Shown one piece after another: positions 8,290 to 28,084 of a stretch of DNA of 64,000 bases; the stretch's first letter is position 1; every line of letters begins with the position of its first letter. Position numbers and translations under genes: made by a program. Source of the stretch: Thraustochytrium sp. TN22 (lineage: Eukaryota > Sar > Bigyra > Thraustochytrida > Thraustochytriidae); the NCBI GenBank assembly GCA_013306675.1, contig JABLUY010000059.1:93327-157326 (forward strand), read 5' to 3'. Under the pieces are notes generated by a model that had not been told where the DNA came from, did no database searches, and was given only the letters and a program-made list of their open reading frames with translations.

Positions 8290-10104
8290 TCAGGCGGCCT
8301 CGTCCGGGGCATCGGGCGGCCGGAGGATGGCAGCCTGGGGATGCGCCTCCTTGCCATCCTTCTGCAGATCGCGAAACTTGGCCTGGGCCGCCCGCGAGGC
8401 CTCGTCGCGCTGGAGCTGCTCCTGCAAGAGGTCAGTGTAATAGCCGAGGCCCTTGGCGCCAAGTCGAAAGAGCATGCCGGGCTTCGCGCCCTGAAAGGTC
8501 TCATAGGGACCGTCAAAGGCGCCCTTGTCAAGGTCCACGTGCGGCACGGAGGGGCCCTCAGCAACAGCAGTTGTGGCCGCGGCGAGCTCCTCATAGCCCT
8601 CCGTGCACATGTCGTTGAGGCCGAGGTCCTCATTGTCCTCGAAGGAGCGCTCGTAGAGCAACTCGGTGAGGCGCGGCTCGGGCTCGGGCGCCGTGGGGCT
8701 GTAGATGAAGGAGTTGGCGAGCGGGTCGCGGATGACGAGAGTGAAGTCCTCCTCGCCAGCGATCATACGCTCGAAGCGGTGCTCAAGCTCGGCGAAGCGG
8801 TCACGCGCGGCCTTGTCGGCCGAGTCGCCGGTCTGAAAGTCGGCGGCCTGACCCTCGAAGAGCGTCTCCTTGACGAGAGTCAGCAGACCCTCCACGGTGG
8901 TGTACATGCCGCCGAGAGAGCCCTGGGTCACCTCGATCTCCAGCTCCGGAAGCAGGACGCCGGCAGAGTTGCTCTTGACAACGTCGCGCTTCATGTCGTC
9001 CATCCACTCACGCGCGTCGCGGCTCTCGCGGGACGGCACAAAGAGCGAGAGCTCCTTGCCCTTGGCCGGGATCGCGCCGCCGCCCTTGACCTCGCTGGTG
9101 CGGTAGCCACACGAGTCGCTCGGGCAGTCGAACGCCATGATAACGATCTCCTGGAAGAAGGGGATGTCAGTGATGCAGGTCTTCGAGGTGCCCTCCGTGC
9201 CGCAGTTGGGGCAGTTGGACGGGATCTGGAAAACCTCCTTGTCCATGATGCGCGCCAGCGCCGCGTCTGTCTCAACCGGCTCACGATGGATGGTGGAGCC
9301 CTTGGGCGTCTGGAAGGTCTTGGCGAGCTCGGCGCGGCGCAGCTCCAGCGTGGCCTCGGCCTCGAGCTCCGTCTCGGTCTTGGTGGCCCCCGCGGCGGCC
9401 TCGTCACCGCCGTTCTCCTCGTCATACTCATAAGTCTCGAGCTGCAGGCCGAGCGCCTCGTTCTGCTCCTTCGAACGCACATAGCGGGTCACCACGAGGT
9501 TCGGGTCAGCGTGCGGCGCCTTGGGGTTCTCCAAGTACGAGTTCCCCGTGGGGTCGTCCAGCACGACGTGGCACGGGAACGAAAGGCCGCTGAGCAGCAT
9601 GGCGAGACGTGCCACGAACTCGTCCACCTGCGCGGCCGTCTCGGGCGCTACGCGGCGGCGGTCCTCCTGGCTGTCCTGCAGCTGCTCGAGCGCCGTGTGC
9701 AGCACGCCCTCGATCGTGGTGAAGACACCCTTACCCTTGGGCACCTCCAGCTCCAGCTCCTCCAGGGTCAGCGTCGCATTGTCGCCCTTGACCAGCTGCC
9801 GCTGCAGGTCCGCCGCCGACTCCAGCCGCAGCCGGTGCCGTGTGCCGCGGTCCTGCACGCGGGACCCGCTCTGGATCTCGTTGTTCTTCCACCCGCAGTG
9901 CGGGCACCGAAAGCTCATGAGGATGATCTCCCTGAAGAACGGGATGTCCGTGAACAGCAGCCGCGTCTTGCCCTGCTTGTGGCAGTTCATGCACAGGCTG
10001 TCCAGCTCCGTCGGCGCGTCCTTGTCCACGTGCACCACATCGCCAATCTTCGGGTACAGCTCCTCGTCCTGCGCCGCCTGCGCCGCCTCCTGCTGCTCCT
10101 GCTG

Positions 10105-10144
<40 letters not shown>

Positions 10145-10155
10145 TCTGCGCCCAT
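8290..10155 (-). CDS. ZPR1: ZPR1 zinc-finger protein
   Basis: A 621-residue protein with the duplicated ZPR1 architecture: a C4 zinc finger followed by an alpha/beta module, twice. Finger 1 is CMNC...CPHCGW; finger 2 is CPNC...CPSDSCGY, with four residues between its last two cysteines instead of two. Both are followed by the family's DIPFF-E-I phrase. The start at 10155 (MGAEE) is the first Met before the conserved region; it precedes an uninterrupted run of 11 glutamines in a Gln/Glu-rich stretch. Known role: ZPR1 binds eEF1A, helps it fold, and moves between cytoplasm and nucleus in growing cells. Human ZPR1 is 459 residues; the excess is the Q-rich head and a low-complexity linker. It is divergent from BRCA2. 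Confidence 0.95.
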
Positions 10156-11011
10156 CTTGCCGCCGCTCTCGCCGCCCTTTCTCTCTCTCTCCTCGCTCTT
10201 TCTCGCTCGCTCGCCCGCTTCGCGCGCGATCGGGTCTGCCCGCCCGCCCGCCCGCCCGCCCGCGCCGCCCGCCCGCGCCGAGAGCCTCCGGAACTCCTGC
10301 GCCACCCGTGGCCCGCGCCGCGCTCGGCGCCACTTGCGCTGCCCTCACGCGCCGCGCGGCCAAGTGCGCTTTCGCGAAGGCCCAAGTTTGCCAACCCCAC
10401 GCGGCCACTGTCAGGGCAAGAACAAGCTCCGAGCCACGGCGCCGTCACGGCCCGGGTCCGTTTCAAACAGCGGCAGAACGGCTGAACGGATGTTCCGGGA
10501 ACGCGTTCTCATCCCGTTCCGCGGCGCTACAGTTGGGCGGCGGCGCCGCGGTACGAGCGCCTCACGTCAAGCTGGCAGGCAGACAGGTTTTGAATTCGAA
10601 GCGGCTCGCCGCGCGGCGCGGCAGCAGCTGCGCGCGGCGCCGCGCGACGCCTGCTGCCTGGAGCGGCGCGGCGCGGCGCGGCGCGCGCGTAGTCCCGGGG
10701 CGCGCCTGGCGTTCGTCGTGCATCCATCCGGGCCGCCTGCGCAGCGAGCGCGGCAGAGGGAAAAAGCGGAGCAGAACGGCGCGGCGCGGCGCAGCGCGCG
10801 GCACCCGGCGCGCGCGTCGCGTGCATGCGCGCGGGCGCCGGGCGGAACGGCGAGGCGAGGCGAGGCGCAGCGGACGGCGGTCGCAACGCGGCGCGCGAGG
10901 CGCGCCGCGGGCCAGGAGGATCTGCGGGGCCACCGCACGGGGCCTCTCTCGACCGCGCGCGGCGGCGCTGCGTCTGCGGAGCGGCGGCGCGCGCGCTCGT
11001 GCGGGCGCGCC
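10156..11011. promoter_or_regulatory. divergent promoter region between ZPR1 and BRCA2
   Basis: 856 bp between divergent start codons. The open frames across it are low-complexity Arg/Ala/Gly strings typical of non-coding GC-rich DNA, so I place the BRCA2 start at 11012, not further upstream. It contains CCCG runs near 10239-10262 and CGGCG-rich stretches. Confidence 0.45.
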
Positions 11012-14000
11012 ATGGCGGACCCGCAGCTCGCACCAGCTGGCTCGCGCAGCCCGGACCTCATGGCCGGCCTTGACGAAGATCTCGACGCCGACCTGGACAT
11101 GGATGAGGGGGAGGACGACGAAGAGGAGGAGGAGCTCGCGGAAGAGGACAAAGCCGAGGCTGCAAGCGGCAGCGCGGGCCGCGGCCGCAGCGCCGTCTCG
11201 CAGGAGGACTTGGAGTCCCTCAGCGATGACGACTGCCAGGCTGACGAAGGGCAGGATGCCCTCGGCTCCCCTGGTGCTGATGGTGGTTCTGGAGCTGAGG
11301 CCGGGGCCGGCTCTGGTGCTGGCACCGGCGCCGCTGGTGCAGGACCCGAGTCGCAAAGCGAGGTTGGCGAGACGCCTCGGCCCGTGCGCTTCAGGTATGA
11401 CTTTGAGCTGAGCCAGGTCTCCTCGCAGTCGTCCGAGGAGCATGTCGGTTCCAAGCGCGCTGCGCTTTCGCCGGGCGGCGGTCTCTTGGACGAGGAGGTC
11501 TCCTGCAAGCGTCTGGCCGCGGCCCCGCGCGAGCCGCTGCGCCCACTCTCTGTCAACATGGCCAGCGACGATGGGCCGCGCTCGTCGCCTGGGCCACGCA
11601 TCGCGGCGCTCTTCGACGATCTCGCGGGTGAGGATGCGGAGAATCGCGATTCAGCGGAACACGACGCACCAATCTCGCGCTCGAAGCGAGCCTCGCCCCA
11701 TCACGACGCCGCCTCGCACATGAACAAGCTCCCTCGTTCTAGTGTGCACGAAAGTTCGCCTCACGAGAGTGAGCGCGCAACCGTGAGCAACGATGGCGAC
11801 CGCGACCACGCTGCTGTACAAGAAGATCTGCAGTCGATCGCCGATCTCGCGCAGCACAGAGTGCGCAAGCCTGCCCCCAATGACCCGCAAAGCAGCATTG
11901 ACGCTGTACAGAGCCTCTTTTCGACGAGTGGCGGCAAAGTTGTGAGCACCAAACGAGACGCTCTCCACAGGGCGGAAGCGTCCCTAGGCGGCGCAGGTAA
12001 TCCGGGCACAGTGCAGAGCTTGTTTTCCACAGGTAGTGGCAAGGCGGTGAACATTGGCCGAGATGCGCTCGCCGCGGCTCGCCGCTCTCTCAAAAGCGAC
12101 GCTGGACAGGTCGTCAACAGCGGAGCTGGCGAGTTGGAAAGCAATGCACGAATCGAGGTCGAGACGAAAGCCAAACGTGACTCCGAAGGTAAGACGCCAA
12201 GCAATCTCACAAGGAAAGAGCCAAGCGGTCTCAGAAGAAACGCACCAACGGTTAACAGCAGCGGGAACCACAACCCTGTGCCAAGCCTTTTCTCAACTGG
12301 CGGAGGCAAAACCGTACACGTCGACCGGGCCGCTCTCGATGCGGCGCATACCGCGTTGGGCGACAGCGAGTCGGCCAAGTCTGTGCCAAGCCTCTTTTCC
12401 ACTGGCAGTGGCAAAACGGTAAACGTCAACCAGGCTGCTCTCGCTGCGGCGCAGGGCGTGCTCGACGGCACCACACGTGTCAGCGGGGCTACGTCGAGGA
12501 CTGGCACCGACACGGATGGCTCCGTGGCGAGTCTATTCTCTACGGGCGGTGGCAAGGCGGTAAACATTAGCAGGGCTGCGCTCACTGCGGCGCAGCGCTC
12601 TCTAGGCGCTAGCGGTACGTCCGGTGGGACAAAGGACGGCACCGTGCCGAGCCTTCTCTCCACAGAAGGCGAAAGGGCTGTGGCGAGCAGCAGCGAGGAG
12701 GCTCTGGGAGCAGCACAGAGCTCTGTTGACGACACGGCCGCGCCGAGCTTGTTCTCGACTGGCGGCGGCAAGACGGTCAACATCAGCAAGACCGCTCTCG
12801 CCGCTGCGCAGAGCGCCCTCAACGATGAAGTTCCCGGCGGCGCGTCCATGTCGGGTGGCGGTTCTGCCCCAAGCCTGTTCTCGACCGGCGGCGGCAAGGC
12901 GGTCAACATTAGCAAGACCGCTCTCGCCGCTGCGCAGAGCGCCCTCAACGATGAAGTTCCCGGCGGCGCGTCCACGTCGGGTGGCGGTTCTGCCCCAAGC
13001 CTGTTCTCGACTGGCGGCGGCAAGACGGTCCACATCAGCAAGGCCGCTCTCGCCGCTGCGCAGAGCGCCCTCAACGATGACGTTCCCGGCGGCGCGTCCA
13101 CGTCAGGTGGCGGTTCTGCCCCAAGCCTGTTCTCGACTGGCGGCGGCAAGGCTGTCAACATCAGCAAGGCCGCTCTCGCCGCTGCGCAGAGCGCCCTCAA
13201 CGATGGCGTTCCCGGCGGCGCGTCCACGTCAGGTGGCGGTTCTGCCCCAAGCCTGTTCTCGACCGGCGGCGGCAAGGCGGTCAACATCAGCAAGACCGCT
13301 CTCGCCGCTGCGCAAAGCGCCCTCAACGATGACGTTCCCGGCGGCGCGTCCACGTCGAGTGGTGCGCCTGCCCCAAGCCTGTTCTCGACCGGCGGCGGCA
13401 AAGAGGTCAACATCAGCAAGACGGCCCTCGCCGCAGCGCAGCGAAGCCTGCACGCCGACAGCAACACAGCCAGCAATGCCAGTGCGCCGAGCTTGTTTTC
13501 TACAGGCGGCGGCAAGACGGTGAGCGTCAGCAGGGACGCGCTCGCTGCGGCGCAGGCGGCGCTGCACAGCGGGCCGAAAAGTGCGGCGCCGTGTTTAAAC
13601 AGGGAGGCGCTCGCGACCGCGGCAGCGAGCAAGCCACAAGCGGGCGGCGGCGCGCGAACGCCTGCTCGAGCCTTGGCACCTCAGCTGCGTGCCAAGGCGA
13701 AGCCGCAGAGTGAGGTAAGGAGAACGAGGCCTCGCGGGTTCACGACTCCGTACAAGAAGGGCGCAGCCCCCGCGCTTGCAGCAGCTGCGAGCGCGCCGGC
13801 CAAGTTGCGTAGCGCCAAAATCCTGAAGGGGTCGCTGGAGGTGGTCTCGGCCGTGCGAGGCGCCCGGCGGCAGAAGCTGGATGAGATGGCTGGCTGCATC
13901 ATGCGACGACGACCCACGGCTGCAGAATTGAGGGAGATCGCGGTGGAGCTCGGGACGCCCTCATGGCTGCTGGCGGTCACGAGCAGCTCGGCGTCGTGTG

Positions 14001-16321
14001 TCAAATTCGACGAGGCGTCGGGTGAGCCGGTGGCACTTGCGCCAGCAGCATGGAGCGAAGGCACGTCGGACGTGGCTCGGCGGCTGTTGCTGGCGCAATA
14101 TGAGGGCGTGGATGAGCGGCAGGCGAGCGCCGCGTGGGTAGCCAACCACTACCGCTGGATTGTGTGGAAGTTGACGGCCTATCAGCGTGTGCTGGGCGGG
14201 GCTTCGTCGCAGCTGGCGCGCGCCTGCTCTCTGAGCGAAGTGGTGGTACGGCTCAAGTACCGGTACGAGCGCGAGTTTGTGCTGGCGGAGCGGTCGGCGC
14301 TGCGCAAGGTGCTGGAAAAGGACGCCGCTGCGGCCGCGCACATGGTCCTATGTGTTGCGTCGGTGGCGCCGCCGGGTCGTCCATATCATCTTGTGCTCAC
14401 GGACGGCTGGTACGCCATGCAGGCGGTGGTGGACCCGGCAATGGCGCAGCTGATTGCGAGGGGCCGCGTGGCGGAGGGCGTCAAGCTGCACGTGTGTGGG
14501 GCCTCTATGGTTGACAATGAGGACGGCGTGAGCCCTCTGGAGGTGGCGACAAACCAAGTGCTGGACAGCAGCAGCTGCAGCAGCGGCGGCGGCGCGCCTC
14601 GTGTCCAGCGGGCGGAGCCGAAGCTGCGCATCTCGCAGAATTGCACCTTCCCGGCAAGTTGGGACGCTACCCTCGGTTTCCAGCGTAGCCGTGCGCCGCT
14701 TTGCAAACAGCTGGACAGGGTGCAGGAGTCGGGCGGCACCTTGGTCCCGGCGGTTCGTGTTGTGGTGGTGCGGCATTTTCGAATGCTCTTCTCGGAGCGC
14801 GAGCCGGGGTCTGGGCGGTGGGTGACGCGGTCGGCCGAGGAGGAGGAGGCGGCGCGGCGGCAGCACGACGAGGAGACTTGCCGCGCGCGCGAGGCCATCA
14901 TCAGTGAGCACGAGCGTAGCTGGGAGGACCTCTCGCAAGGATCTTCGTCCTCGTCCTCGCAGCCGCACCATCGAAAGCAGGACTGGCGCGACACAGTGGC
15001 GCGCGCGTTGGAGACCGACCCGCGTATCCCGCCGCGGCGAGAGGTCAAGACCAAGATGCGCGTGCTCCTGCAGCAGCCGGGTGGCGAGCGCTTCGCGGAG
15101 CTGACGGTGTGGACCCCGCACCCAGACTTTGTGCGCGATTTCCCTGAAGGCGCGCTGCTGGAGATTAGCGCACTCACAGTTATGGCGCGGCCGTCCTCGG
15201 GCCAGATTTCGCTGCGGTCCACGCTCGCGCTGGCGACCGGCAAGGAGACGCGCTTCAAGCTGCTGGACCGCCAGTACCGTGGCGAGGATGCCGTCAATCT
15301 CCGCTGCATTGCGCCCATCGCCGACCTCTGCGACCAGCGCACGCCCTTTGTCGACTTTGCCGGCGTCCTCGTGCACAGAACTTCCCGCCACGCCTTCTTT
15401 TGCGGCGGCGACGGCGAGGGCGACATCGTCTCGGTTTTGCTCGCGCCCACGACTGCGCTGCCGGCCGATGCCGAGCCGGGCACGGTGGTGTGCGTGCGCG
15501 ATGCGGCCGTTCAGGCGCGCGATCCGGCCTCGCAGTTTTTCGCATGCGCAGAGACCTTCCACACGGAGATGAGCGCCGGAGCGACCCACACCGACCCCCG
15601 CTGGCGCGCCTTTGAGGATCGGGCCGCCGATGTTTCGTCCATTGCTTGGCAGGACGCGCGCTGCCGAGTAGAGGCCGTCCTGTCCACTGCAGTGACGCCC
15701 AACGTGGCCAAAAGGAGCCCTCCTACTCCCTCGCCGCGCGGGAGCTTGTCCGCTCCCTCGCCTCGCGCGGCAAGCCTCCGTCCTCAGCCGTCCCCGGCTC
15801 CCTCGCCGCAGCCGCAGCTCGCGACCGCCCTCACGGACGCGGAAGCGGCTCGCCAAGAGCGCATCCGCCTCTCGCGCGAGAAGCAGGCGCAGTGGCGGGA
15901 GAAGAATCGCGACCGTCTTGCTGCCCGCGCAGCTGCGGCCGCCGCCGCGCGCGGTCCTGGCCGCGAGCCCAAACTCGAGCTCTTCATTCGCGGCGCCGAC
16001 ATCACCGACATCATGGTGGGCCGCAAGCTGATTGACGTGCGCAGAGCCACGGAGCGCATCCAAGCGCTGCGCATGAACGACCTCATCCTCTACCGCGCCG
16101 GCTCGTACGAGCAGATCGTGCGTGTCAAGGCTGCCATCCCGTACAAGTGCGTCGCCAAAGCGCTCGAGCATGAGCCCCTCGCCAAACTGTTCCCACGTCT
16201 TGAGTCCGTGGACCAAGCCGCGGAGATCCTCGGTCAGCACATCGACCCGAGCACAGCGGTGTATTCCGTCCACTTTGAGGTCCCCGACAAGGTCACGCTG
16301 CCCGCCTGGGCGAAGAAGTAA
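11012..16321 (+). CDS. BRCA2: BRCA2 homologue with about 13 BRC repeats and C-terminal ASCH-like domain
   Basis: A 1,769-residue single-exon protein. An acidic N-terminus is followed by BRC repeats at about 299-860, each with the RAD51-binding core FSTGGGK-V-(I/V)S plus AL-AAQ-AL. Twelve are well formed, one is degenerate (LLSTEGER) and a partial one follows. The BRCA2 helical domain comes next (NHYRWIVWKLTAYQ at about 1042), then OB1 (LVLTDGWYAMQAVVDP at about 1127) and later OB folds. BRCA2 loads RAD51 on single-stranded DNA for homologous recombination. After the OB folds come a Ser/Pro linker, a basic helix (REKQAQWREKNRDRLAAR) and an ASCH/PUA-like fold at about 1655-1765 (GRKLIDVRR, NDLILYRAGS, YKCVAKALEHEPLAKLFP). 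That last part is not a usual BRCA2 domain. Its stop lies 50 bp from that of RABL6. Confidence 0.95.
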   Translation: MADPQLAPAGSRSPDLMAGLDEDLDADLDMDEGEDDEEEEELAEEDKAEAASGSAGRGRSAVSQEDLESLSDDDCQADEGQDALGSPGADGGSGAEAGAGSGAGTGAAGAGPESQSEVGETPRPVRFRYDFELSQVSSQSSEEHVGSKRAALSPGGGLLDEEVSCKRLAAAPREPLRPLSVNMASDDGPRSSPGPRIAALFDDLAGEDAENRDSAEHDAPISRSKRASPHHDAASHMNKLPRSSVHESSPHESERATVSNDGDRDHAAVQEDLQSIADLAQHRVRKPAPNDPQSSIDAVQSLFSTSGGKVVSTKRDALHRAEASLGGAGNPGTVQSLFSTGSGKAVNIGRDALAAARRSLKSDAGQVVNSGAGELESNARIEVETKAKRDSEGKTPSNLTRKEPSGLRRNAPTVNSSGNHNPVPSLFSTGGGKTVHVDRAALDAAHTALGDSESAKSVPSLFSTGSGKTVNVNQAALAAAQGVLDGTTRVSGATSRTGTDTDGSVASLFSTGGGKAVNISRAALTAAQRSLGASGTSGGTKDGTVPSLLSTEGERAVASSSEEALGAAQSSVDDTAAPSLFSTGGGKTVNISKTALAAAQSALNDEVPGGASMSGGGSAPSLFSTGGGKAVNISKTALAAAQSALNDEVPGGASTSGGGSAPSLFSTGGGKTVHISKAALAAAQSALNDDVPGGASTSGGGSAPSLFSTGGGKAVNISKAALAAAQSALNDGVPGGASTSGGGSAPSLFSTGGGKAVNISKTALAAAQSALNDDVPGGASTSSGAPAPSLFSTGGGKEVNISKTALAAAQRSLHADSNTASNASAPSLFSTGGGKTVSVSRDALAAAQAALHSGPKSAAPCLNREALATAAASKPQAGGGARTPARALAPQLRAKAKPQSEVRRTRPRGFTTPYKKGAAPALAAAASAPAKLRSAKILKGSLEVVSAVRGARRQKLDEMAGCIMRRRPTAAELREIAVELGTPSWLLAVTSSSASCVKFDEASGEPVALAPAAWSEGTSDVARRLLLAQYEGVDERQASAAWVANHYRWIVWKLTAYQRVLGGASSQLARACSLSEVVVRLKYRYEREFVLAERSALRKVLEKDAAAAAHMVLCVASVAPPGRPYHLVLTDGWYAMQAVVDPAMAQLIARGRVAEGVKLHVCGASMVDNEDGVSPLEVATNQVLDSSSCSSGGGAPRVQRAEPKLRISQNCTFPASWDATLGFQRSRAPLCKQLDRVQESGGTLVPAVRVVVVRHFRMLFSEREPGSGRWVTRSAEEEEAARRQHDEETCRAREAIISEHERSWEDLSQGSSSSSSQPHHRKQDWRDTVARALETDPRIPPRREVKTKMRVLLQQPGGERFAELTVWTPHPDFVRDFPEGALLEISALTVMARPSSGQISLRSTLALATGKETRFKLLDRQYRGEDAVNLRCIAPIADLCDQRTPFVDFAGVLVHRTSRHAFFCGGDGEGDIVSVLLAPTTALPADAEPGTVVCVRDAAVQARDPASQFFACAETFHTEMSAGATHTDPRWRAFEDRAADVSSIAWQDARCRVEAVLSTAVTPNVAKRSPPTPSPRGSLSAPSPRAASLRPQPSPAPSPQPQLATALTDAEAARQERIRLSREKQAQWREKNRDRLAARAAAAAAARGPGREPKLELFIRGADITDIMVGRKLIDVRRATERIQALRMNDLILYRAGSYEQIVRVKAAIPYKCVAKALEHEPLAKLFPRLESVDQAAEILGQHIDPSTAVYSVHFEVPDKVTLPAWAKK
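12741..13380 (+). repeat. 126-bp tandem repeats encoding near-identical BRC motifs
   Basis: Inside the BRCA2 gene, five consecutive 42-codon units repeat with exact 126-bp spacing (AAGCCTGTTCTC at 12871, 12997, 13123, 13249 and 13375). They differ at only a few bases, mostly T/A, N/H and E/D/G changes, and share a VPGGAS spacer. Flanking BRC units are much more diverged, so this block expanded or was homogenised recently. Confidence 0.93.
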
Positions 16322-18772: not shown

Positions 18773-19180
18773 CGGAGGACATGTGTGTGCGGATGATGAT
18801 GCCTTCATCCGTTGTTTGATACGAGATTGAGGACAACGTGCGACGAACGAATTCGCGATGATAGAACTCACAGGGACTCTGAGCTCGCAGGGACGATTTC
18901 GCAAGGATGGACTTGCAGGAGCAGGAGTTTGCTCTCTGCGCTCACCCTGCGGCCTTTTCCGCGGCCCACCGTCACCCGCGCTGCTGCCCCGGGCCCCGCG
19001 GCCGCTGTCGTCAGGACTCCCTCCCTCCTTCCCTCCAAGCGGCGGCGGTTCCCTGGCATCCAGCCAGAGGAAAAAAAAGATCTGCTGACGCCGGAATGGA
19101 AGGCGTGCAATGCTGTTTTCATTCGCACCAGTTAGCTTCAGGCCCGGTCTAAGCACTGGGGGTGGTGCGGTCTATTACGT
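18773..19180. other. intergenic, no gene recognised
   Basis: Downstream of the GT2 gene. An A8 run at about 19071-19078 would be a T-run on the minus strand, about 100 nt beyond the tRNA-like gene, and could act as a distant Pol III stop. Nothing else stands out. Confidence 0.35.
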
Positions 19181-19329
19181 ACCGGGCATCGGGGTTCGAA
19201 CCCGAGAGAACATACGTTCAGGCGATCTTAAGTCGCACTCTGCAACAGCGACTTTTTAGTTAGCATAGTGGACAAAGGGCGCTTCGCGCGAGAAAATAAA
19301 CGCACCCTTAGCCACTCGGACATACCCGC
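19181..19329 (-). tRNA. tRNA-Leu(UAA)-like gene interrupted by a 66-nt GT-AG insertion in the D arm
   Basis: Read on the minus strand: acceptor GCGGGTA (19329-19323), T8 G9, then TCCGAGTGGCTAAGG with a good A-box. The gene breaks at 19305, and 66 nt later resumes with AG TGCGA, loop CTTAAGA (anticodon TAA at 19230-19228) and TCGCC. A class II variable arm (GAAC-GTAT-GTTC) and a perfect T arm (TCGGG-TTCGAAC-CCCGA, the B-box) follow, then TGCCCGG. Joining the parts gives an 83-nt tRNA whose D stem (TCC/GGA) forms only after removing the 66 nt. Flaws: G1:G72 and T27:C43 mismatches, and T instead of A as discriminator base. It may therefore be a pseudogene or a Pol II-borne tRNA-like element. Confidence 0.55.
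19240..19305 (-). other. GT-AG intron-like insertion within the tRNA-Leu-like gene
   Basis: A 66-nt segment starting GTGCGT and ending GCTGTTGCAG, with GCTAACTAA (branch-point-like) 15-25 nt before the end. These are spliceosomal signals. Its position, between nucleotides 24 and 25 of the tRNA, is not the usual 37/38 site of tRNA introns. Confidence 0.5.
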
Positions 19330-19995: not shown

Positions 19996-22900
19996 TCAGA
20001 GCTCATGCGTGGCGAGATAAACCTGCACGGCGACGCGGACAATGGCTCGATCCTTGTCCTGCTCATCCTGAGGCAGGTCTGCGTAGGCGCGGCGCTGGAC
20101 GTCGGTGACCCAGTCGTGGTGCCCGTTTCGCTTGAGCCAGTAGTCGTGCTGCTCCGCGCTGGCCTTCTCAATGAAGCTGGTGCTGGCGAGGGTCTTGCGG
20201 AAGGCGTCTGCGTTGTTGGGCACGAGCATCTGGTTCCAGCACCTGCGGATGGACTCGCAGGCTGCATGCGCGGCGAGGAGGTTCTCGACCTTAAAGTACT
20301 CGGGGAGTTGGTTGAACTCGAGGTTGGCGATGTCGTACTCGTGGCCGGCGATGACCTTGATGCGCGGCTCGAAAGTGCCGTCCGGCAGGCGCTTCCTGGT
20401 GTGGCGCCACATCTCGTGGAGCTGAGTCGCAGTGGAGATCTCAAAGGTCTGCAGCTCGCTGGCGGTGGCTTGCGCATCAATGTCAATCTCTTCCGGCTCC
20501 ATAAGCAGGTCGTCGCTTCCGTCGACGTCCTGCGCCTCGCCGTCTGCGTCCGTGTCCGCATCGTCGCCCTGCTCCTCCTCCTCCTCCTCCCCCAGGTCGG
20601 CGGCTTGCGGGTCGGCTTGCTCCTCGCCCTGGCCGGCCGTCCCGAACCCTTGCTTGGCCTGAACCGAAGTGCGCCTCCGCTTCTTGCTGGCCCAGAAGGA
20701 GAGCTCGGCCTCGCGGCGCTCGTGGATGGAGTTGCGTGAGTTGAGCAGCTCGAGGAAGAGCGCGAGCTTCTCAGCGAGCGGCCGCGTGTCCTGCTCAGCG
20801 ATCTCGTCCTTGTCGGAGGCCCATATGCGGAGTCGAGTCTGCGCGTCAGTGGAGCTGCGGTCGAGCGCGCCCCAGAGGTTGGTGCGCTCCATGAGTGCGT
20901 AGAACTCCACAATGTTCTCCACGCCGAAAAAGCGTAGTTGGGCCTCCGTCGGCACGGTGATGAGCTCCGCGACGCGACCGAGCGCCTCAAGGAAGTCCGG
21001 GTAGCTGAGTGCGATCATGGGCTCCCAGTCCTGCACCCAGTTGACCACGTTGGTGGTGGAGAGCACAAAGGCGAAGGTGGACTCACGGATGGTGAAGTTC
21101 GTCGTGTAAAGACCGAGCTGGCGCAGGCCCTGGTTCCACTCCTGAATGGCAAGGCGCTCCTTGGCCAAGCCGCCCCAGCGGGTGGTGCGCTGCGTGGTGC
21201 CGGCGAGCTCCATAAACCACTGCTGGAGCATGGCGCGGTGCACGCCAAAGGTTTTGGACACCTCCTCTGTGTACAGGCGGCGCACGCGCCAGCTGTCAAA
21301 GTCCAAGACAGTCTCCATGCCGAGGTAGCGCACCACGTGCCGCTGCAAAAGCTCGTCAAACGCCTCGGCGAGAGAGCCATCCTTCGGGTCGTAGTACTTG
21401 GCATGTGCGATGCGCAGCATCACGTCCAGAAACTCGTGGCGCATCAAGCGCCGACATTTCTTCAGGCCGAGGGGGTCGCACTTCTCGTTGAGGCGCCGCA
21501 CATGCGCGTCCGTATGTGCAGGCAACATGCTGGCGACGCGTATAAAGAGGTTCATCACCATGTGTTTGAAGGTCGAGTCCCGCTTGGTGAGAATCTTGAC
21601 GTCCGTCAGCAGCCGCAAAAAAGTTGGCGGCAGCATCGCGAACGGGTTCTGCGGCGTCAAAGCGCAGTAGAACCTGTACACAGACAGAAGCAGCGGCGCC
21701 GCGTCAATCGTTAGCTCACGCACCATCTCGACATCTTCCTCGGAGAACTGTCCGAGGAACTCGCGGAAGCCAGCCTTGCCCATGTTGAGGTCCCAGTCCG
21801 CGTGAGCGCACGCCTTGCTGATCGGGTTCTCGTCCAGGTACGCTCGGCGCCCGTCGAAGGCATCCGTGCACAACTGCTGCGCATCGCCGTCCTCCTGGTC
21901 CTCGTCACCCCCCTCGAGAATGCGCAGCACTCGCCCGGGCGCGCGAACTGCCAGGTTGAGCACCTCGTCCAGCACGACGCCCGCCGGCGTCCACCGGACG
22001 CCGGTGCCGGCCTGACCGCGCTCCACGCGCGACAGGGCGTCGTACGACTCGCCCAGGCAGGGCTCCACAAGCGGGTTGCCGTCCTCGTGATTCTGGCTGT
22101 ATGCAGGCGGTGCCTCCGGCTGGCGCACCGCAACGGAGACGCGCGGCGCCAGCACGTGCACCATCTCGGCGCCCTTGTAGACCGTCTGCATTACGCGTGC
22201 GAGGCCCGGCATCGCTTCGAGCACGTCGCGCTTCGAGAGCTCCTCCTCGTCCTGCTCCTTGTTGGCCCTGCCCAGCGCCGCGAGCGACCTCGGATCCGTC
22301 GGCGCGCCGAGTTGGTCCAGGTCCAAGAATTTGTCGATCAGATTGCGTGGCCCATTGTAAAACACGTAACCAACGCGGCCCTTGGGCGCTTCATGCAGCG
22401 GCAACTCCGCGTGCACGCGCGCCCCTGGCACGTGGCCAAAGAGCGCCATCTTCTCCCGCTTGAGGCGCTGTTGTTGTTTGCTCTTGATCATGGGCGCCAT
22501 ACGCTCCAGGTAGGCTTGCGGCGTCATGGCCGATGCCGTGGCGGAGGGGTCGGAGGCGTCTGTGAACACGAAGGCCTCGCGCTCCACGGCCACGCGCCCA
22601 GGGGTCACACGCTTGATGTACGGGTTCCATGGGTCCGTCTGCGGACTGCCGTCGGATGGCGGCCATAGCGCCTTGCTCGCGCCGCGCAGTCGCTGCTGGA
22701 AGCCCTTGTTTGCCTCCGCGACTTGCGCCTCGCTGAAGGTCGAGTGCGCCGCGTGGCGATTCGACGCCGGGTCGCAGGGCGCCAACGTGGGTTCCGCCAG
22801 CTCGCGCGCCACTTTGCGCGGCGAGGACCTGCGCGGCGAGCGGAGCTTCTCGGGTCGGTGCGGCCGCGGCGCCTCCTTATTGGTGATGGCCCATGCCAAC

Positions 22901-25900
22901 TTTTTGGCCGCCTCGAGCTGCTCGTCAAGATCCATTGTCGCAACGAGCTGTCCCTCGTCCTCCGCACGCACGTGCACGAGGCGCGTGTCACTCTCGCTGC
23001 CTCCTGTGCTGGGTCCCACGCTGTCATCGTTGTTCGCTTCGCCCTTGGCGGCGCGCTTGACCTCGTCCCGCGGCGGCTCGCTCACTCGCGCGACGAGCCC
23101 GCGAAAGGGCCAGAGCATCGACTGGTCGGGGGACTTGATCCGGTCGAAGCTCACGTGGCGAAGCGCCACGCGATGCGCCCGAAAGCACGCCATGGCCTTG
23201 CTCAGGTCGCGCATCTCTTCCGTCGCACGTATCGACTTGCACGCCGCAGCAGGCGAAGCCGAAGCCGAAGTCGAGGCCGAGAGCGCTGTCGCGCGAGTGC
23301 GTCGCGAGGCCACGCCCGACCGCGTGCTCGAGGCCGCCTGCACGAGTTCCTCGTCGAGATTGCGGAGCCACTGCTCGAACAGGGCGCGTGGGTCGTCCCT
23401 TCCCAGATGCTGCTCCTTCTCTTGCTGCTCCCGCGCCTGCTGTTCCTTCATCGCGCAGCGCTGCACGCAGCGCTGCCACTCGATGTCGCTCAACGGCGCC
23501 CAGCCCACCATTTCTTTGGCGCGTAGCTCGGCTTGGTAGATTTTGGTGCGATTGTCCGGGCTCTCGGCGAGAAGTTGCAGCAGCCCGGAGAGCAAGTCCT
23601 GCATCTCCTCCTGCTCCTGATCTGCCGCCACCCAGCACGACACGAGCAGGCGGTAGAAGCCGTGGCGCGCAATCTGGGCCTGGCCCACACGTGACTCGCC
23701 GAAACGCAGGAGCGCCAGCAACGAGGCCCGGCGCTCGGGCGCCGAGCCCTCCGTGGCGAGGTCTAGCAGTCGCAGCGCCTGGTTACTGGCCCGGAACTTC
23801 TCGTGCTGCGCAGGGCCCATGGGCAGGCGCGCGAGCAGATTTGCGCCGGTGGCACGCAAAGCGGCGCAGCTCCCGTCGACCAGGTGCATGCCGAGGTCCT
23901 GCAGCGGATTTACGTGCAGCTCACGCCGCAGCACGAGCGCAAGGTCGGCGCGTCCGTCCTCGCGCACGCGATGTGCCAGATGTGCGAGCAGGTTTGTGCT
24001 TCGCTCCCGCGCCTCGACGCACAGGCTGCGCGCATAGCTGCAAGCGTAGAGCGTCTCGAGCATCCATGCGTTCTCCTTCTTTGCGACGGCCGCTAGGAGC
24101 GCCGGATTGGCGTCCACTACGGTCCACATCACATTGAGCGCCAGCACCGCAACTCGTTGGCCGGCCGGAAGCGCCTTGACACGAGTCAGGATCCGGGCGG
24201 TGCAATGCAGCGCGCGGTGCAGCAGGCAGGCCTGCACGAAGGCCGTTTGCGTGGTGCCGTCGACTCCCAGCCGTGTTGCCTGCGCGCCCAGCACCCACAG
24301 CGCCGCGAGCGCCGCCTCAATGCCGTCCAGGCTCACGGGTTGCGGCTGCTGCAAGATGCGCATCAACGCACGCACCGTACGCGTATCTGCCACGAGCATC
24401 GCGGCATTGGCCTCGTCCCGGCCCAGGCTCCACACGGTCATGGCCAGGCACGCAGTGCTGGCTGCAGGTCCGGCCGCCTCCACCTCCTCTAGACGCTGCA
24501 CGAGAAGGCGAAGCGTGGCTGGTGCGATGCGAGCGACCGCGCGCGGCGGACTGCGCACCTGCGCGAAGTCTACTACATCCGCGTCCGCGCTGGCGCCCGC
24601 AGCAACAGGCCCCAAGGTGAACATGAGCACAGCGCTCGACAGCAGCTTGTGCGTCTCGGGAGCACGCGCGTACCTCCAGGTCGGCCGGTTCGTATGTGCG
24701 TTCTCCAGCAGCATGTGAAGGCCGCCTCGGGCCGCCACGAGCGCATGCCCGCGCTCCGTCTTGCAGAGCGCGTTCAAAAGGCCCCGCGCGAGGCACACCT
24801 CCGCCGCGGCGCTCGGGCACCTACGCACATCCATGGCACAGAATTCAGGACATGCGGTCCAATCCCACGCTTCCTGCTCCTCGGCATGCGAAGGGTCGAC
24901 CGCAGCGAGGTCGTCCTTGGGACGCTGTGCACAGCGGTTGCGTGGCAGAGCTGCTGATGGTGGTGCCTTGGAACCGTATCCGCGCAAGGCAAAATCATCC
25001 CGCACGCCGACGTCGCGCGGCCGTATCGGTCTCTGGAGCACCATCTCGTCACCGGCGTTTGGGATTGCTTTGCGCAAGAGGCGATGCGCGAGTTGCGGGA
25101 TGCAAAGAAGGCGCTCTGTGGCGAGCGCCGCAAGCCGCACCGCGGCGTCGACGCGAGCCGGGTCGACAATATGCTGCAGGCGAGCCTGCGCAATAAATGC
25201 AGCGAGCCAGCCTTCCTGTGCGAAGCCGAGCACATGCGCCAGGAAGCCGTAGACAGCGTCCACGTCGCGGTCCTGAGTTGTGCGGTATCGAACGTAAACG
25301 TGGTCGCCCGCCACAGCCTGCAGGTGTACTGCGACAGCCCAGGCAAAGCACACGTTGATGGCGTGCAGGAGCGTCTCAATGGCGAAGGCTTCAATGCGCA
25401 GGGGCAGTTTGGCATTCTGCGCGCCATGCCACTGCACATCGATGAGCTTGCCCAGCTCGTTGCCCTGAGCGCGCGCCGCGGCAAGGTACCCCCTGCGCGA
25501 CGGATCATCGGTCTCGTCCTCAAGGTCGTCGTCTGCAGTCTGCTGGTGCTGGTGCTGCTGGTGCTGAGTATGGTCCAAGAGACGCCGCAGGCGGGCCAGG
25601 CCGGGCGGCGCGTGGATGAAGCTGCGCCTGACCAGCGTTCCAGCGACGCATGCCAGCGCCCAGCGGCCGAGCATTGTCGTTGACGTACACACGAGCTTGG
25701 GCGAGCTGAGCAGGAGCTGCCGGTACGGGTGCAGGATGGGTGGGTGGTCCACGTCCGTGGGCGCCCGCAGCTGCAAGCGGCCGGCGCACGTTGGAGCGCA
25801 TCGCGTGTCCTGCGTCTCCGCGAGGTGCGCAACCTGCGCGACGAGCAGTGTCGCCGATAGCTTCACCGTGACGTCGCTAGTCTGGGCGGCACGGCTTAGC

Positions 25901-27381
25901 GCCTCGCGCAGAAAGTCTCCCAGCACCGCCGCGTTCGTGCGACAGGTGCCTACCATCATACCGCGCATCGTGCTGCGCCGCACACGACTGCGTCTAGTCT
26001 GGCGGAGACCAGACACGTCGCGCTCGAGGTCATGGTACATGTAGGCAGCCAGCTCACACGTTGGCTTCTCCTCCACTGGCCGAAGGCTTTCCGTGCTGCA
26101 AGTGCCGCTATCGCTGCTGTTGCTGCTGGTCGTGCTGCTGGTCGTGCTGCTGGTCGTGCTGCTGGCGAGGCTGCTGTCGCTTGCATTCACGGCGTGATGC
26201 CCAGTGGGCACCGCCTCGGTCTCTGGCATCAGCACGCGCGACTCTAAGGCGCGCAGATAAACGACAAAAATGGCGGCGCAGACGGGCGGCGCGGCGCCGG
26301 ACTGCAAGCAGGCGGCGAAGAAGCCGAGATTGTTCATCGCCGCCGCGAGACAGTCCGGCTCCTGCGCATAGACGGCGAGCAAGCGCAGCAGTAGAAGTGC
26401 GCTCTTGGGTGGTGGGTCGACCACCAGATTGCCAATGCCGCTGTGGATGACCTGAAAGGCGCGCGCTGGAACCTGAAGGCGCCTCAGCGCGTCGCGGCCT
26501 GTGTCGGCCGACAGGCAGAGCGCCTGCAGCGCGCCTGCCGCCAGATCTTGTACACGGCTGTAGCGCTCAGCACGCTCCAGCAGTCCCATGGCTTGCTCCA
26601 GCACCTCCTCACCGATGTACGCGTGGTTGTCCGCACAGAGGGCCAGCTCCCATAGCTCGAACAAGCCCTGCGCCTGCTGCACGCGCTGGTCGGCCTGCGA
26701 ACCGGGCACAGGCAGGTCAATATTGGCCTCGGCAGTGAGGTCCACGAGTCGCTCCACGGGAAAGGGCAGCTCCGCCTCGCCGGCGAAGGCTGTCTGGATC
26801 TGCCGCACCGCCGCGCGTATACGCGCCGCGCGCCGCTGCGCCGCCGAGGCCGCCCAACGCTCCAGCAAGGATTGCAGCACCTCGTTGGAGATGATGGGAT
26901 ACCATATGGCGCCGCCCAGGCGCAGTCGCACGTCCCGCAGTTTGGCCTCGTGCTCCTTGAGCCTGAGCAGGTTCAGCACCTGCTGCGGGCCCATGCCGAG
27001 GCGTTCGGTGTTCACGAAGACGTCCACCTTGCCGGCGTCTGGCAGCGTCGTACCGGGGCAGCTGAGCGCCACGTACTTGAGTAAGCCTTCGACCGTGGAG
27101 AATCTGAGCACCGTGGCCGCGCCTTCTGCCACGGGCTCCCGCTGGAGCAGCACCTGATCCCTGCCAATCGGCCCCAGAGCGCCCTCCTCGTCCACGAAGA
27201 TCACGCTCACGCATGGCGCCTGCAGCGCGACCAGCTCCTCTTGCGCCTCCTCCTCATTCACCTCGTCCGTCGTGGCGTGCCTCAGCAGCCCGGTTCGTGC
27301 GCGCGACATCATACGCGCGCGCAGCAGTCGGCTGCTCGTCGTGGACGACGGGTTGCTGCCTCGCCCCGACCGGAACGACAT
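19996..27381 (-). CDS. giant 2,461-aa ARM-like protein with EF-hand-like and RyR-like C-terminal regions
   Basis: One uninterrupted 7.4-kb exon. Residues about 50-250 form a compact N-terminal domain ending in an IQ-like basic helix (RAARIRAAVRQIQTAF). A Thr/Ser microsatellite (TTSSTTSS) sits near 400-420. Residues about 250-1,400 read as armadillo/HEAT helices with many Leu/Ala repeats. At about 1,900-2,150 are blocks such as FLRLLTDVKILTKRD and RHEFLDVMLRIAHAKY, a pattern I associate with EF-hand-like helices of protist cytoskeletal or ciliary proteins (memory, not tested). An acidic linker follows. The last 120 residues include EYDIANLEF-QLPEYF, YWLKRNGHHDW and LPQDEQDKDRAIV, resembling the RyR-domain phrase in which W-x-R is followed by E-x-x-KDR. 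Function unknown; a scaffold role is a guess. Confidence 0.85.
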   Translation of the reverse strand: MSFRSGRGSNPSSTTSSRLLRARMMSRARTGLLRHATTDEVNEEEAQEELVALQAPCVSVIFVDEEGALGPIGRDQVLLQREPVAEGAATVLRFSTVEGLLKYVALSCPGTTLPDAGKVDVFVNTERLGMGPQQVLNLLRLKEHEAKLRDVRLRLGGAIWYPIISNEVLQSLLERWAASAAQRRAARIRAAVRQIQTAFAGEAELPFPVERLVDLTAEANIDLPVPGSQADQRVQQAQGLFELWELALCADNHAYIGEEVLEQAMGLLERAERYSRVQDLAAGALQALCLSADTGRDALRRLQVPARAFQVIHSGIGNLVVDPPPKSALLLLRLLAVYAQEPDCLAAAMNNLGFFAACLQSGAAPPVCAAIFVVYLRALESRVLMPETEAVPTGHHAVNASDSSLASSTTSSTTSSTTSSNSSDSGTCSTESLRPVEEKPTCELAAYMYHDLERDVSGLRQTRRSRVRRSTMRGMMVGTCRTNAAVLGDFLREALSRAAQTSDVTVKLSATLLVAQVAHLAETQDTRCAPTCAGRLQLRAPTDVDHPPILHPYRQLLLSSPKLVCTSTTMLGRWALACVAGTLVRRSFIHAPPGLARLRRLLDHTQHQQHQHQQTADDDLEDETDDPSRRGYLAAARAQGNELGKLIDVQWHGAQNAKLPLRIEAFAIETLLHAINVCFAWAVAVHLQAVAGDHVYVRYRTTQDRDVDAVYGFLAHVLGFAQEGWLAAFIAQARLQHIVDPARVDAAVRLAALATERLLCIPQLAHRLLRKAIPNAGDEMVLQRPIRPRDVGVRDDFALRGYGSKAPPSAALPRNRCAQRPKDDLAAVDPSHAEEQEAWDWTACPEFCAMDVRRCPSAAAEVCLARGLLNALCKTERGHALVAARGGLHMLLENAHTNRPTWRYARAPETHKLLSSAVLMFTLGPVAAGASADADVVDFAQVRSPPRAVARIAPATLRLLVQRLEEVEAAGPAASTACLAMTVWSLGRDEANAAMLVADTRTVRALMRILQQPQPVSLDGIEAALAALWVLGAQATRLGVDGTTQTAFVQACLLHRALHCTARILTRVKALPAGQRVAVLALNVMWTVVDANPALLAAVAKKENAWMLETLYACSYARSLCVEARERSTNLLAHLAHRVREDGRADLALVLRRELHVNPLQDLGMHLVDGSCAALRATGANLLARLPMGPAQHEKFRASNQALRLLDLATEGSAPERRASLLALLRFGESRVGQAQIARHGFYRLLVSCWVAADQEQEEMQDLLSGLLQLLAESPDNRTKIYQAELRAKEMVGWAPLSDIEWQRCVQRCAMKEQQAREQQEKEQHLGRDDPRALFEQWLRNLDEELVQAASSTRSGVASRRTRATALSASTSASASPAAACKSIRATEEMRDLSKAMACFRAHRVALRHVSFDRIKSPDQSMLWPFRGLVARVSEPPRDEVKRAAKGEANNDDSVGPSTGGSESDTRLVHVRAEDEGQLVATMDLDEQLEAAKKLAWAITNKEAPRPHRPEKLRSPRRSSPRKVARELAEPTLAPCDPASNRHAAHSTFSEAQVAEANKGFQQRLRGASKALWPPSDGSPQTDPWNPYIKRVTPGRVAVEREAFVFTDASDPSATASAMTPQAYLERMAPMIKSKQQQRLKREKMALFGHVPGARVHAELPLHEAPKGRVGYVFYNGPRNLIDKFLDLDQLGAPTDPRSLAALGRANKEQDEEELSKRDVLEAMPGLARVMQTVYKGAEMVHVLAPRVSVAVRQPEAPPAYSQNHEDGNPLVEPCLGESYDALSRVERGQAGTGVRWTPAGVVLDEVLNLAVRAPGRVLRILEGGDEDQEDGDAQQLCTDAFDGRRAYLDENPISKACAHADWDLNMGKAGFREFLGQFSEEDVEMVRELTIDAAPLLLSVYRFYCALTPQNPFAMLPPTFLRLLTDVKILTKRDSTFKHMVMNLFIRVASMLPAHTDAHVRRLNEKCDPLGLKKCRRLMRHEFLDVMLRIAHAKYYDPKDGSLAEAFDELLQRHVVRYLGMETVLDFDSWRVRRLYTEEVSKTFGVHRAMLQQWFMELAGTTQRTTRWGGLAKERLAIQEWNQGLRQLGLYTTNFTIRESTFAFVLSTTNVVNWVQDWEPMIALSYPDFLEALGRVAELITVPTEAQLRFFGVENIVEFYALMERTNLWGALDRSSTDAQTRLRIWASDKDEIAEQDTRPLAEKLALFLELLNSRNSIHERREAELSFWASKKRRRTSVQAKQGFGTAGQGEEQADPQAADLGEEEEEEQGDDADTDADGEAQDVDGSDDLLMEPEEIDIDAQATASELQTFEISTATQLHEMWRHTRKRLPDGTFEPRIKVIAGHEYDIANLEFNQLPEYFKVENLLAAHAACESIRRCWNQMLVPNNADAFRKTLASTSFIEKASAEQHDYWLKRNGHHDWVTDVQRRAYADLPQDEQDKDRAIVRVAVQVYLATHEL

Positions 27382-28084
27382 CCTCCCTGCGCATCCCCGC
27401 CCGCGCGCGCGCGCGGGGCCGGCCTCGCCAATCCAAACTGCTGGCCGCTTGCGCTGCTGGCGCCCGCTTCAGGCTCGCTTTCTAAAAAGAGAGCACGAGA
27501 ACCAAGAAGCACCAAGAACCAAGAACCAGACCATCCTTTTTCCCTTCACCCCACCACCACCACACCAGAACGACACTCCGGCGTCCGCGAACGTCTACCC
27601 GGTGTGCCCCAGCGTTCCCGCGGCGGTTTCCCCGGCCCCACCCATCTCCGCCGCCTCAGCGCCCCAGCCTCACTGTCCCGCAGCCGCCCCCCTCGCCGTC
27701 CGCCTCCTCCCCCTCCTCCCTTTAGCCGCCACTGGGCATCAATGTCCCAGTGGTTCCCCACCATCCGATCACCCTGCTGCGGGCTCGTGTCGCCCAGTGG
27801 ACTAAGGTGGTGCACTGCGGGGCGTCCGGTCCCGGAGAAGCCGCGCGGAAGCGGCCTTCCTCCCTAAAATTGGGGGAGGGCACGCGCAGTGAGGTCAGGG
27901 GCCGCAGAGTCCAGCACGGCGCCCGCAGCCCCACCCAGGGCGCGGTCCCGCAGCCTCCCGCAGCCGCGCGGCGCCGAGCGGCGTGAGGCAAACCCCGAAG
28001 CGCGACAGGCGAGTCCGCGCGAGGCAAGTGATTGCCGATTGATTGGTGCATCGCGGAGGCGGCGGCGGCGCACGCGCAGGCAGG
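27382..28084. promoter_or_regulatory. divergent promoter region (giant ARM gene / DUF1664 gene)
   Basis: 703 bp between divergent starts, with A/C-rich stretches (CCACCACCACCAC near 27550) and pyrimidine-rich runs at 27690-27725. No specific regulatory motif recognised. Confidence 0.4.

Follow-up and report, generated by a model that had tools for sequence, protein, structure and literature searches.

Ectopic tRNA introns, which lie away from the canonical position 37/38, have been described in Cyanidioschyzon merolae, in the nucleomorphs of Guillardia and the chlorarachniophytes, and in Crenarchaeota (PMC4090602, PMC3978253, PMC9602550). Such genes can carry several introns, and tRNA-Ile(UAU) of C. 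merolae has three (PMC9602550). Removal of the ectopic introns in archaea and C. merolae is attributed to the splicing endonuclease, acting on bulge-helix-bulge (BHB) motifs (PMC4090602, PMC3978253); the Guillardia introns, 3-24 nt long, are removed by a mechanism stated there to be unknown, many of them without a defined BHB (PMC4090602, PMC3978253). Short insertions in the D and T arms are reported mostly from one of many synonymous tRNA genes, and the Leu(UAA) gene of the Guillardia nucleomorph is listed as pseudo (PMC4090602).

A second related case is the U6 snRNA of Schizosaccharomyces pombe, a Pol III transcript whose precursor contains a spliceosomal, mRNA-type intron that is thought to have arisen by reverse splicing (PMC10484740). 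Splicing of tRNA, by an endonuclease and a ligase, and splicing of mRNA, by the spliceosome, are treated as separate processes, a division that would fall if the spliceosome matured a tRNA. Among the matches listed in a literature search there was no report of such a tRNA in titles and abstract openings, subscription papers and preprints lying outside its scope, and neither ‘spliceosomal intron in tRNA’ nor ‘spliceosomal introns in tRNA’ appears in the papers listed.

The tRNA-Leu(UAA) gene described here resembles the ectopic-intron genes in being interrupted more than once and away from 37/38. It differs from them in the nature of its inserts which, like that of a second gene for tRNA-Ile(UAU), are 66-70 nt long and begin with GT, contain a branch motif and end with AG, the BHB motif being lacking in two of the three. 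With U6 of S. pombe it would share the property of being a small RNA gene with an mRNA-type intron; U6, however, is part of the spliceosome, whereas a tRNA is no splicing component.

Anatomy of the tRNA-Leu(UAA) locus

The window, meaning the whole stretch of 64,000 nt that was analysed, corresponds to positions 93327-157326 of contig C408 in the Thraustochytrium sp. TN22 genome (37.9 Mb, 453 contigs). Its G+C content is 57-76% in 2-kb steps and the neighbouring frames look cellular, comprising a BRCA2-like gene, a family 2 glycosyltransferase and a 2,490-aa open frame. The BRCA2-like gene (9485-16321, plus strand) consists of a single long open frame, has numerous BRC-type repeats and matches the Pfam BRCA2 repeat (4.8e-34) and OB1 (4.6e-29) entries; the 2,490-aa frame (19996-27468, minus strand) has no Pfam match at E 0.01.

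The tRNA-Leu(UAA) gene lies on the minus strand, in three exons separated by two introns. Exon 1 (24 nt, 19306..19329) holds tRNA nucleotides 1-24, that is the 5' acceptor strand, T8, G9 and the D arm as far as G24, with the A box inside it. Intron 1 (66 nt, 19305-19240) follows between nucleotides 24 and 25 and reads GTGCGT...GCTAACTAA...TTGCAG, with a GCTAACT motif whose branch A is 20 nt from the 3' site. Exon 2 (57 nt, 19183..19239) runs from nucleotide 25 to position 71 and contains the UAA anticodon, the class II variable arm, the T arm with the B box, and most of the 3' acceptor strand. Intron 2 (70 nt, 19182-19113) starts directly after acceptor-stem position 71, thus between 71 and 72, with the 5' site GTACGT; it reads GTACGTAATAG...GAAGCTAACTGG...AAAACAG and again has GCTAACT, the branch A being 19 nt from the 3' site. 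Exon 3 (19111..19112) consists of C72, which pairs with G1, and the discriminator A73. A run of eight T residues (19071..19078, minus strand), a possible Pol III terminator, lies 32 nt past A73 once the gene is spliced, or 102 nt after 19180 in the unspliced gene. The pentamer GTGCG occurs both at the start of intron 1 (19305-19301) and near the start of exon 2 (19238-19234); this 5-bp direct repeat could be a trace of how intron 1 was inserted.

A first-pass annotation, made from the sequence, had noted the A box, the anticodon loop CTTAAGA, the class II variable arm, the T arm and the 66-nt insert, all of which are indeed present on the minus strand. It had also proposed that removal of the insert gives an 83-nt tRNA, and this is borne out by ARAGORN, which makes no call on the unspliced locus and calls an 83-nt tRNA-Leu(taa) when intron 1 is taken out. 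Three nearby joins, which take out 62, 64 or 68 nt there, are called as well; only the 66-nt join conforms to the intron grammar (GTRNGT, CTRAY, YAG). The insert and exons were as that annotation described them, but the end of the gene had been misplaced at 19181, its last residues, C72 and A73, being those at 19112-19111. Two of the three weak points it had listed, a G1:G72 mismatch and a T at position 73, disappear because a second GT-AG intron, then overlooked, is removed. The third, a mismatch at 27:43, stays; it is common to this gene and the nuclear tRNA-Ser(CGA), which also has T73.

With both inserts out, ARAGORN calls an 83-nt tRNA-Leu(UAA) with G1:C72 and A73. When seven class II tRNAs are aligned, the spliced molecule shows 19 of 20 standard pairs, 27:43 being the sole failure. 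The U10:A25 pair, one of four pair types at 10:25, forms only with intron 1 out, and G1:C72 together with A73 only with intron 2 out. An A73 discriminator is a mark of leucine tRNAs. The Leu(CAG), Leu(UAG) and Leu(AAG) genes of the genome all have A73 and all have G1:U72, in place of which tRNA-Leu(UAA) has G1:C72. After splicing, the gene has the cloverleaf, class II variable arm, B box and UAA anticodon of a nuclear class II tRNA-Leu. Its B box is intact, and its A box, near consensus, fits a loose pattern and fails a strict one. The earlier claim that a tRNA-Leu(UAA) gene is interrupted by a GT-AG intron is in this way upheld and strengthened, removal by the spliceosome being suggested by the signals. 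As a gene with two spliceosome-type introns, predicted to be spliced and functional, it would have at least one counterpart among the tRNA genes of the genome.

Splice signals and chance controls

The frequency with which intron-like joining produces tRNA-like molecules by chance was assessed in 200 dinucleotide-shuffled windows, from which any GT..AG span of 45-130 nt was removed before tRNA calling. This gave 160 false tRNA calls in 6,452,353 joins. Joining of GT..AG ends was rejected as proof in itself, because tRNA calls were made in 90 of the 200 shuffled windows; applied to the real window, the same procedure made a single false call unrelated to the locus (Ala). None of the 160 false calls involved a GTRNGT/CTRAY/YAG span, 4,468 joins being of this kind, and none had a GGTTCRANYCC B box, while a loose A box was found in three and a strict A box in one. 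The tRNA-Leu(UAA) candidate has the intron grammar, the GGTTCRANYCC B box and the loose A box together.

Independent detection of the exons was provided by a covariance model built from six other class II tRNAs, with the candidate left out. Searched against the whole window, and with E-values that are rough, the model places exon 1 first (15.5 bits, E 0.022) and exon 2 second (14.3 bits, E 0.051), the third match having an E-value of 0.88. The two leading matches are adjacent and in order. Thus, although joining alone yields spurious calls in many shuffled windows, a chance assembly of tRNA-like and intron-like words is scarcely credible, given the lack of the intron grammar or the B box in all 160 of those calls and the recovery of both exons by the independent model.

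The intron signals were compared with those of mRNA introns elsewhere in the genome, using as an outside sample eight Ras-family loci with nine gaps. Four gaps are clear in-frame introns, with joins such as VWDTAGQEQYHSLASL-YYR and LWD-TAGQED, although that on contig C17 rests on just three residues (MYY). The others were left out of the count, three (L096, L098, L102) being ambiguous, one (L100) having no solution and one (L099) appearing by eye to be coding. The four Ras introns are 81, 73, 102 and 69 nt long, with the 5' sites GTACGT, GTACGT, GTAGGT and GTACGT (GTACGT in three of four), the branch motifs CTGAC, CTAAC, CTAAC and TTGAC at 10-36 nt before the 3' site, and CAG at all four 3' ends. 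The two Leu introns measure 66 nt (GTGCGT) and 70 nt (GTACGT) and the Ile intron 70 nt (GTAAGT); their branch motifs, CTAAC, CTAAC and CTGAC respectively, lie 19-20 nt from the 3' site, and each intron ends with CAG. On this comparison set of four introns, the tRNA inserts have a 5' site, branch motif and 3' site like those of the host's mRNA introns and a similar length; what differs is that the host gene is a tRNA.

Within the window, 7 of 21,049 GT..AG spans of 55-110 nt fit the intron grammar, those of the tRNA-Leu(UAA) locus included. The minus strand has four matches to the stricter GTRNGT..GCTAAC..YAG and the plus strand none (one and zero in reversed controls). All four overlap the tRNA-Leu(UAA) locus, where they arise from two 3' ends, for each of which there are two candidate 5' ends. 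The looser GTRNGT..CTRAC..YAG is not enriched in the window over the reversed control: the minus strand has 10 in both, the plus strand 0 in the window and 7 in the control.

Canonical 37/38 introns also interrupt nuclear tRNA genes of this genome. They are shorter (13-49 nt as called by ARAGORN) and differently placed, and none of the six looked at starts with GT and ends with AG. The positions 24/25 and 71/72 in the Leu gene, and 6/7 in the Ile gene, are all different from 37/38.

A second split gene and the nuclear tRNA set

That other tRNA genes might be split by GT-AG introns had been raised in the first-pass annotation, and one with the same architecture, a gene for tRNA-Ile(UAU), was found on the plus strand of contig C287 (L094, G000:C287:22600-23500). 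It surfaced as the weakest of 63 Rfam tRNA matches (C287:22965-23025, 38.5 bits), covering model positions 7-64 only. The order there is GCTCCT, then GTAAGT...GCGCTGACC...GGCAG, then GTAGCTCAGTTGG, so that a 70-nt GTAAGT..CTGAC..CAG intron interrupts the acceptor stem at 6/7. ARAGORN makes no call on the unspliced locus and calls tRNA-Ile(tat) when the 70 nt are out; a join slid by four bases is called as well. Two mismatches, T6:T67 and T28:T42, were seen by eye. Ile(AAU), another Ile family of the genome, has canonical introns. In 134,669 bases from non-mitochondrial loci, a set that covers both split loci more than once, 59 spans fit the intron grammar, and of these only the ones at Leu(UAA) and Ile(UAU) give tRNA calls, each via two overlapping loci.

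An intact tRNA-Leu(UAA) gene elsewhere, which the first-pass annotation had regarded, together with a lack of spliced RNA from this locus, as a sign of a pseudogene here, was not found within the limits of pattern searches for a class II A box, for the D arm to the anticodon, and for the anticodon with a B box, genome coverage being incomplete. The A-box search gave 105 places, and 41 of 100 listed places were scanned with ARAGORN. AGYGGNTAAGG occurs at 24 places which, on reading and with ARAGORN, are 13 known class II tRNAs, the candidate and ten non-tRNAs. None of 63 places from the D arm-to-anticodon search ends in TTAA, and no second Leu(UAA) was obtained with TTAAR and a B box at 18-48 or 48-78 nt, or with TTAAG and a B box at 30-60 nt. 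The Leu and Ser searches recovered three Leu(CAG), one Leu(UAG) and three Leu(AAG) genes, along with Ser genes. Leu(UAA) and Ile(UAU) were each found once only.

These searches have limits. The Rfam tRNA search of the genome, with 63 places including those of the organelle, missed ordinary Leu genes, and at the tRNA-Leu(UAA) locus an Rfam E-value search gives two matches, far under their cut-offs. A search for further copies of the locus found only itself and copies were rejected, in a search so insensitive that other Leu genes were missed too. The nuclear genes for Glu, Gln, Pro, elongator Met, Cys, Leu(CAA), Ser(UGA), Thr(UGU), Val(AAC/UAC) and other tRNAs were likewise missed, which reflects the reach of these searches and not the gene content, and as several essential nuclear tRNAs were never located, the absence of Leu(UAA) elsewhere is not proven.

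Leu(CAA) was found neither by the D arm-anticodon search nor by a TCAAR..B-box search with one gap range. Because of this, it may be speculated that tRNA-Leu(UAA) also serves UUG. A TCAAR..B-box place on contig C23 was rejected as Leu(CAA), ARAGORN calling it a selenocysteine tRNA (UCA) that has no intron; a T run comes after this candidate Sec tRNA (L110, G000:C23:63200-63600). At another place (L109, G000:C101:62920-63150) there is a truncated tRNA-Tyr, identical to the L108 gene up to the end of the anticodon arm and then continuing into unrelated sequence.

UUA and AUA are rare in two long frames of 2,491 and 1,774 codons, where UUA occurs twice and once and AUA six times and not at all, respectively; UUG occurs there 28 and 16 times. 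A 22-kb contig, C318, carries mitochondrial genes, and ARAGORN calls no Leu(UAA) tRNA on it. If TTA is read as stop, its long frames shrink only at their ends (for example from 399 to 383 and from 515 to 493 codons), and the cox1-like frame of 504 codons is unchanged, so that these frames fit TTA as a stop codon. A mitochondrial code with TTA as stop is NCBI table 23 (Thraustochytrium). For a Schizochytrium mitogenome, TAA, TGA or TTA are given as stops (PMC7799850). The stop usage on C318 thus points to a host that is probably a thraustochytrid.

Proposed maturation of the precursors and competing explanations

The reading we favour, to which a probability of roughly two in three is assigned, is that nuclear tRNA-Leu(UAA), with its two GT-AG introns, and likewise tRNA-Ile(UAU) are functional genes for tRNAs that read rare codons, and that their precursors go through the spliceosome. 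The whole tRNA-Leu(UAA) unit would be transcribed by Pol III or Pol II, and the spliceosome would recognize GTRCGT, GCTAAC and CAG and join the three exons. A full cloverleaf would be possible only after exon joining, whereupon RNase P, RNase Z and CCA addition would finish the tRNA. The product would read UUA and possibly UUG. The tRNA-Ile(UAU) precursor on C287 would be matured in the same way, with one intron at 6/7. For both split genes, transcription, spliceosomal removal and function are predictions from the DNA sequence. The more specific proposition, that maturation of at least two nuclear tRNAs, for the very rare codons UUA and AUA, is the work of the spliceosome and not of the tRNA endonuclease, has slightly better than even odds. 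If it is true, spliceosome activity is directly required for the decoding of UUA and AUA, tRNA genes can acquire and retain GT-AG introns, and tRNA scanners that assume 37/38 introns overlook real, perhaps sole, isoacceptors.

The strongest rival is a dead tRNA-Leu(UAA) locus with intron-like insertions, the functional copy residing in unassembled or unsearched sequence. The 27:43 mismatch and the distant terminator are what might be expected of such a locus, an assembly in 453 contigs and incomplete tRNA searches leave room for the copy, and short D- and T-arm insertions in eukaryotic tRNA genes are taken as supposed pseudogene marks in PMC4090602. Against this, both insertions can be removed exactly to give 19 of 20 pairs and A73, and two complete sets of splice signals would be unexpected in a decayed gene. 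Moreover, no other Leu(UAA) turned up in the searches, incomplete as they were, and Ile(UAU) repeats the pattern. A dead locus is therefore considered unlikely.

Much less probable is that the inserts are ectopic tRNA introns which the tRNA splicing endonuclease removes at a bulge-helix-bulge, as proposed for Cyanidioschyzon. Multiple introns outside 37/38 are known from algae and nucleomorphs, and Guillardia, in the accounts cited above, dispenses with a defined BHB in many cases. The folding at the junctions, which had been pointed to as a discriminating feature, gives a divided answer. Leu intron 1 can form 3/4 central, 2/3 outer and 2/3 inner pairs, but Leu intron 2 forms 0/4, 1/3 and 1/3, and the Ile intron 3/4, 0/3 and 0/3. 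Six canonical introns of the genome form 2-3 of 3 outer pairs and 1-3 of 4 central pairs, hence the power of the BHB comparison is limited. Recognition by the endonuclease thus finds no support at Leu intron 2 or the Ile intron, and at Leu intron 1 it is conceivable. GTRNGT, CTRAC and CAG are present in all three inserts, and the enzyme needs none of them.

Similarly low in probability is the view that the exons are parts of a normal Pol II gene, whether for a protein or for a long non-coding RNA, in which the tRNA-like stretch has no role in translation. Joining the three exons leaves one frame open throughout, intron signals flank exon 2 on both sides, and T runs lie inside the introns. This frame of 107 aa, however, matches nothing in Pfam at E 0.01, DNA rich in G+C often has open frames, and the sequence has kept the tRNA pairs, the B box and A73.

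If the two loci are indeed tRNA genes with spliceosomal introns, their transcription signals are mixed. The A and B boxes and the downstream T runs suit Pol III, whereas the internal T5 of the Ile gene and the T4 within Leu intron 1 suit Pol II or read-through. TATAWA is present within 110 nt upstream of 12 of the 53 nuclear tRNA genes with enough upstream sequence, and of neither split gene. A run of T4 or longer lies within 0-11 nt of the 3' end in 56 of 58 nuclear tRNA genes; an internal T4 is found in one and an internal T5 in none. In tRNA-Ile(UAU) a T9 run begins one base past A73, and the T5 inside its intron argues against simple Pol III transcription. By a count from the printed list, T5 is the first run in 11 of the 58 genes, so that the one in the Ile intron should lower the Pol III yield.
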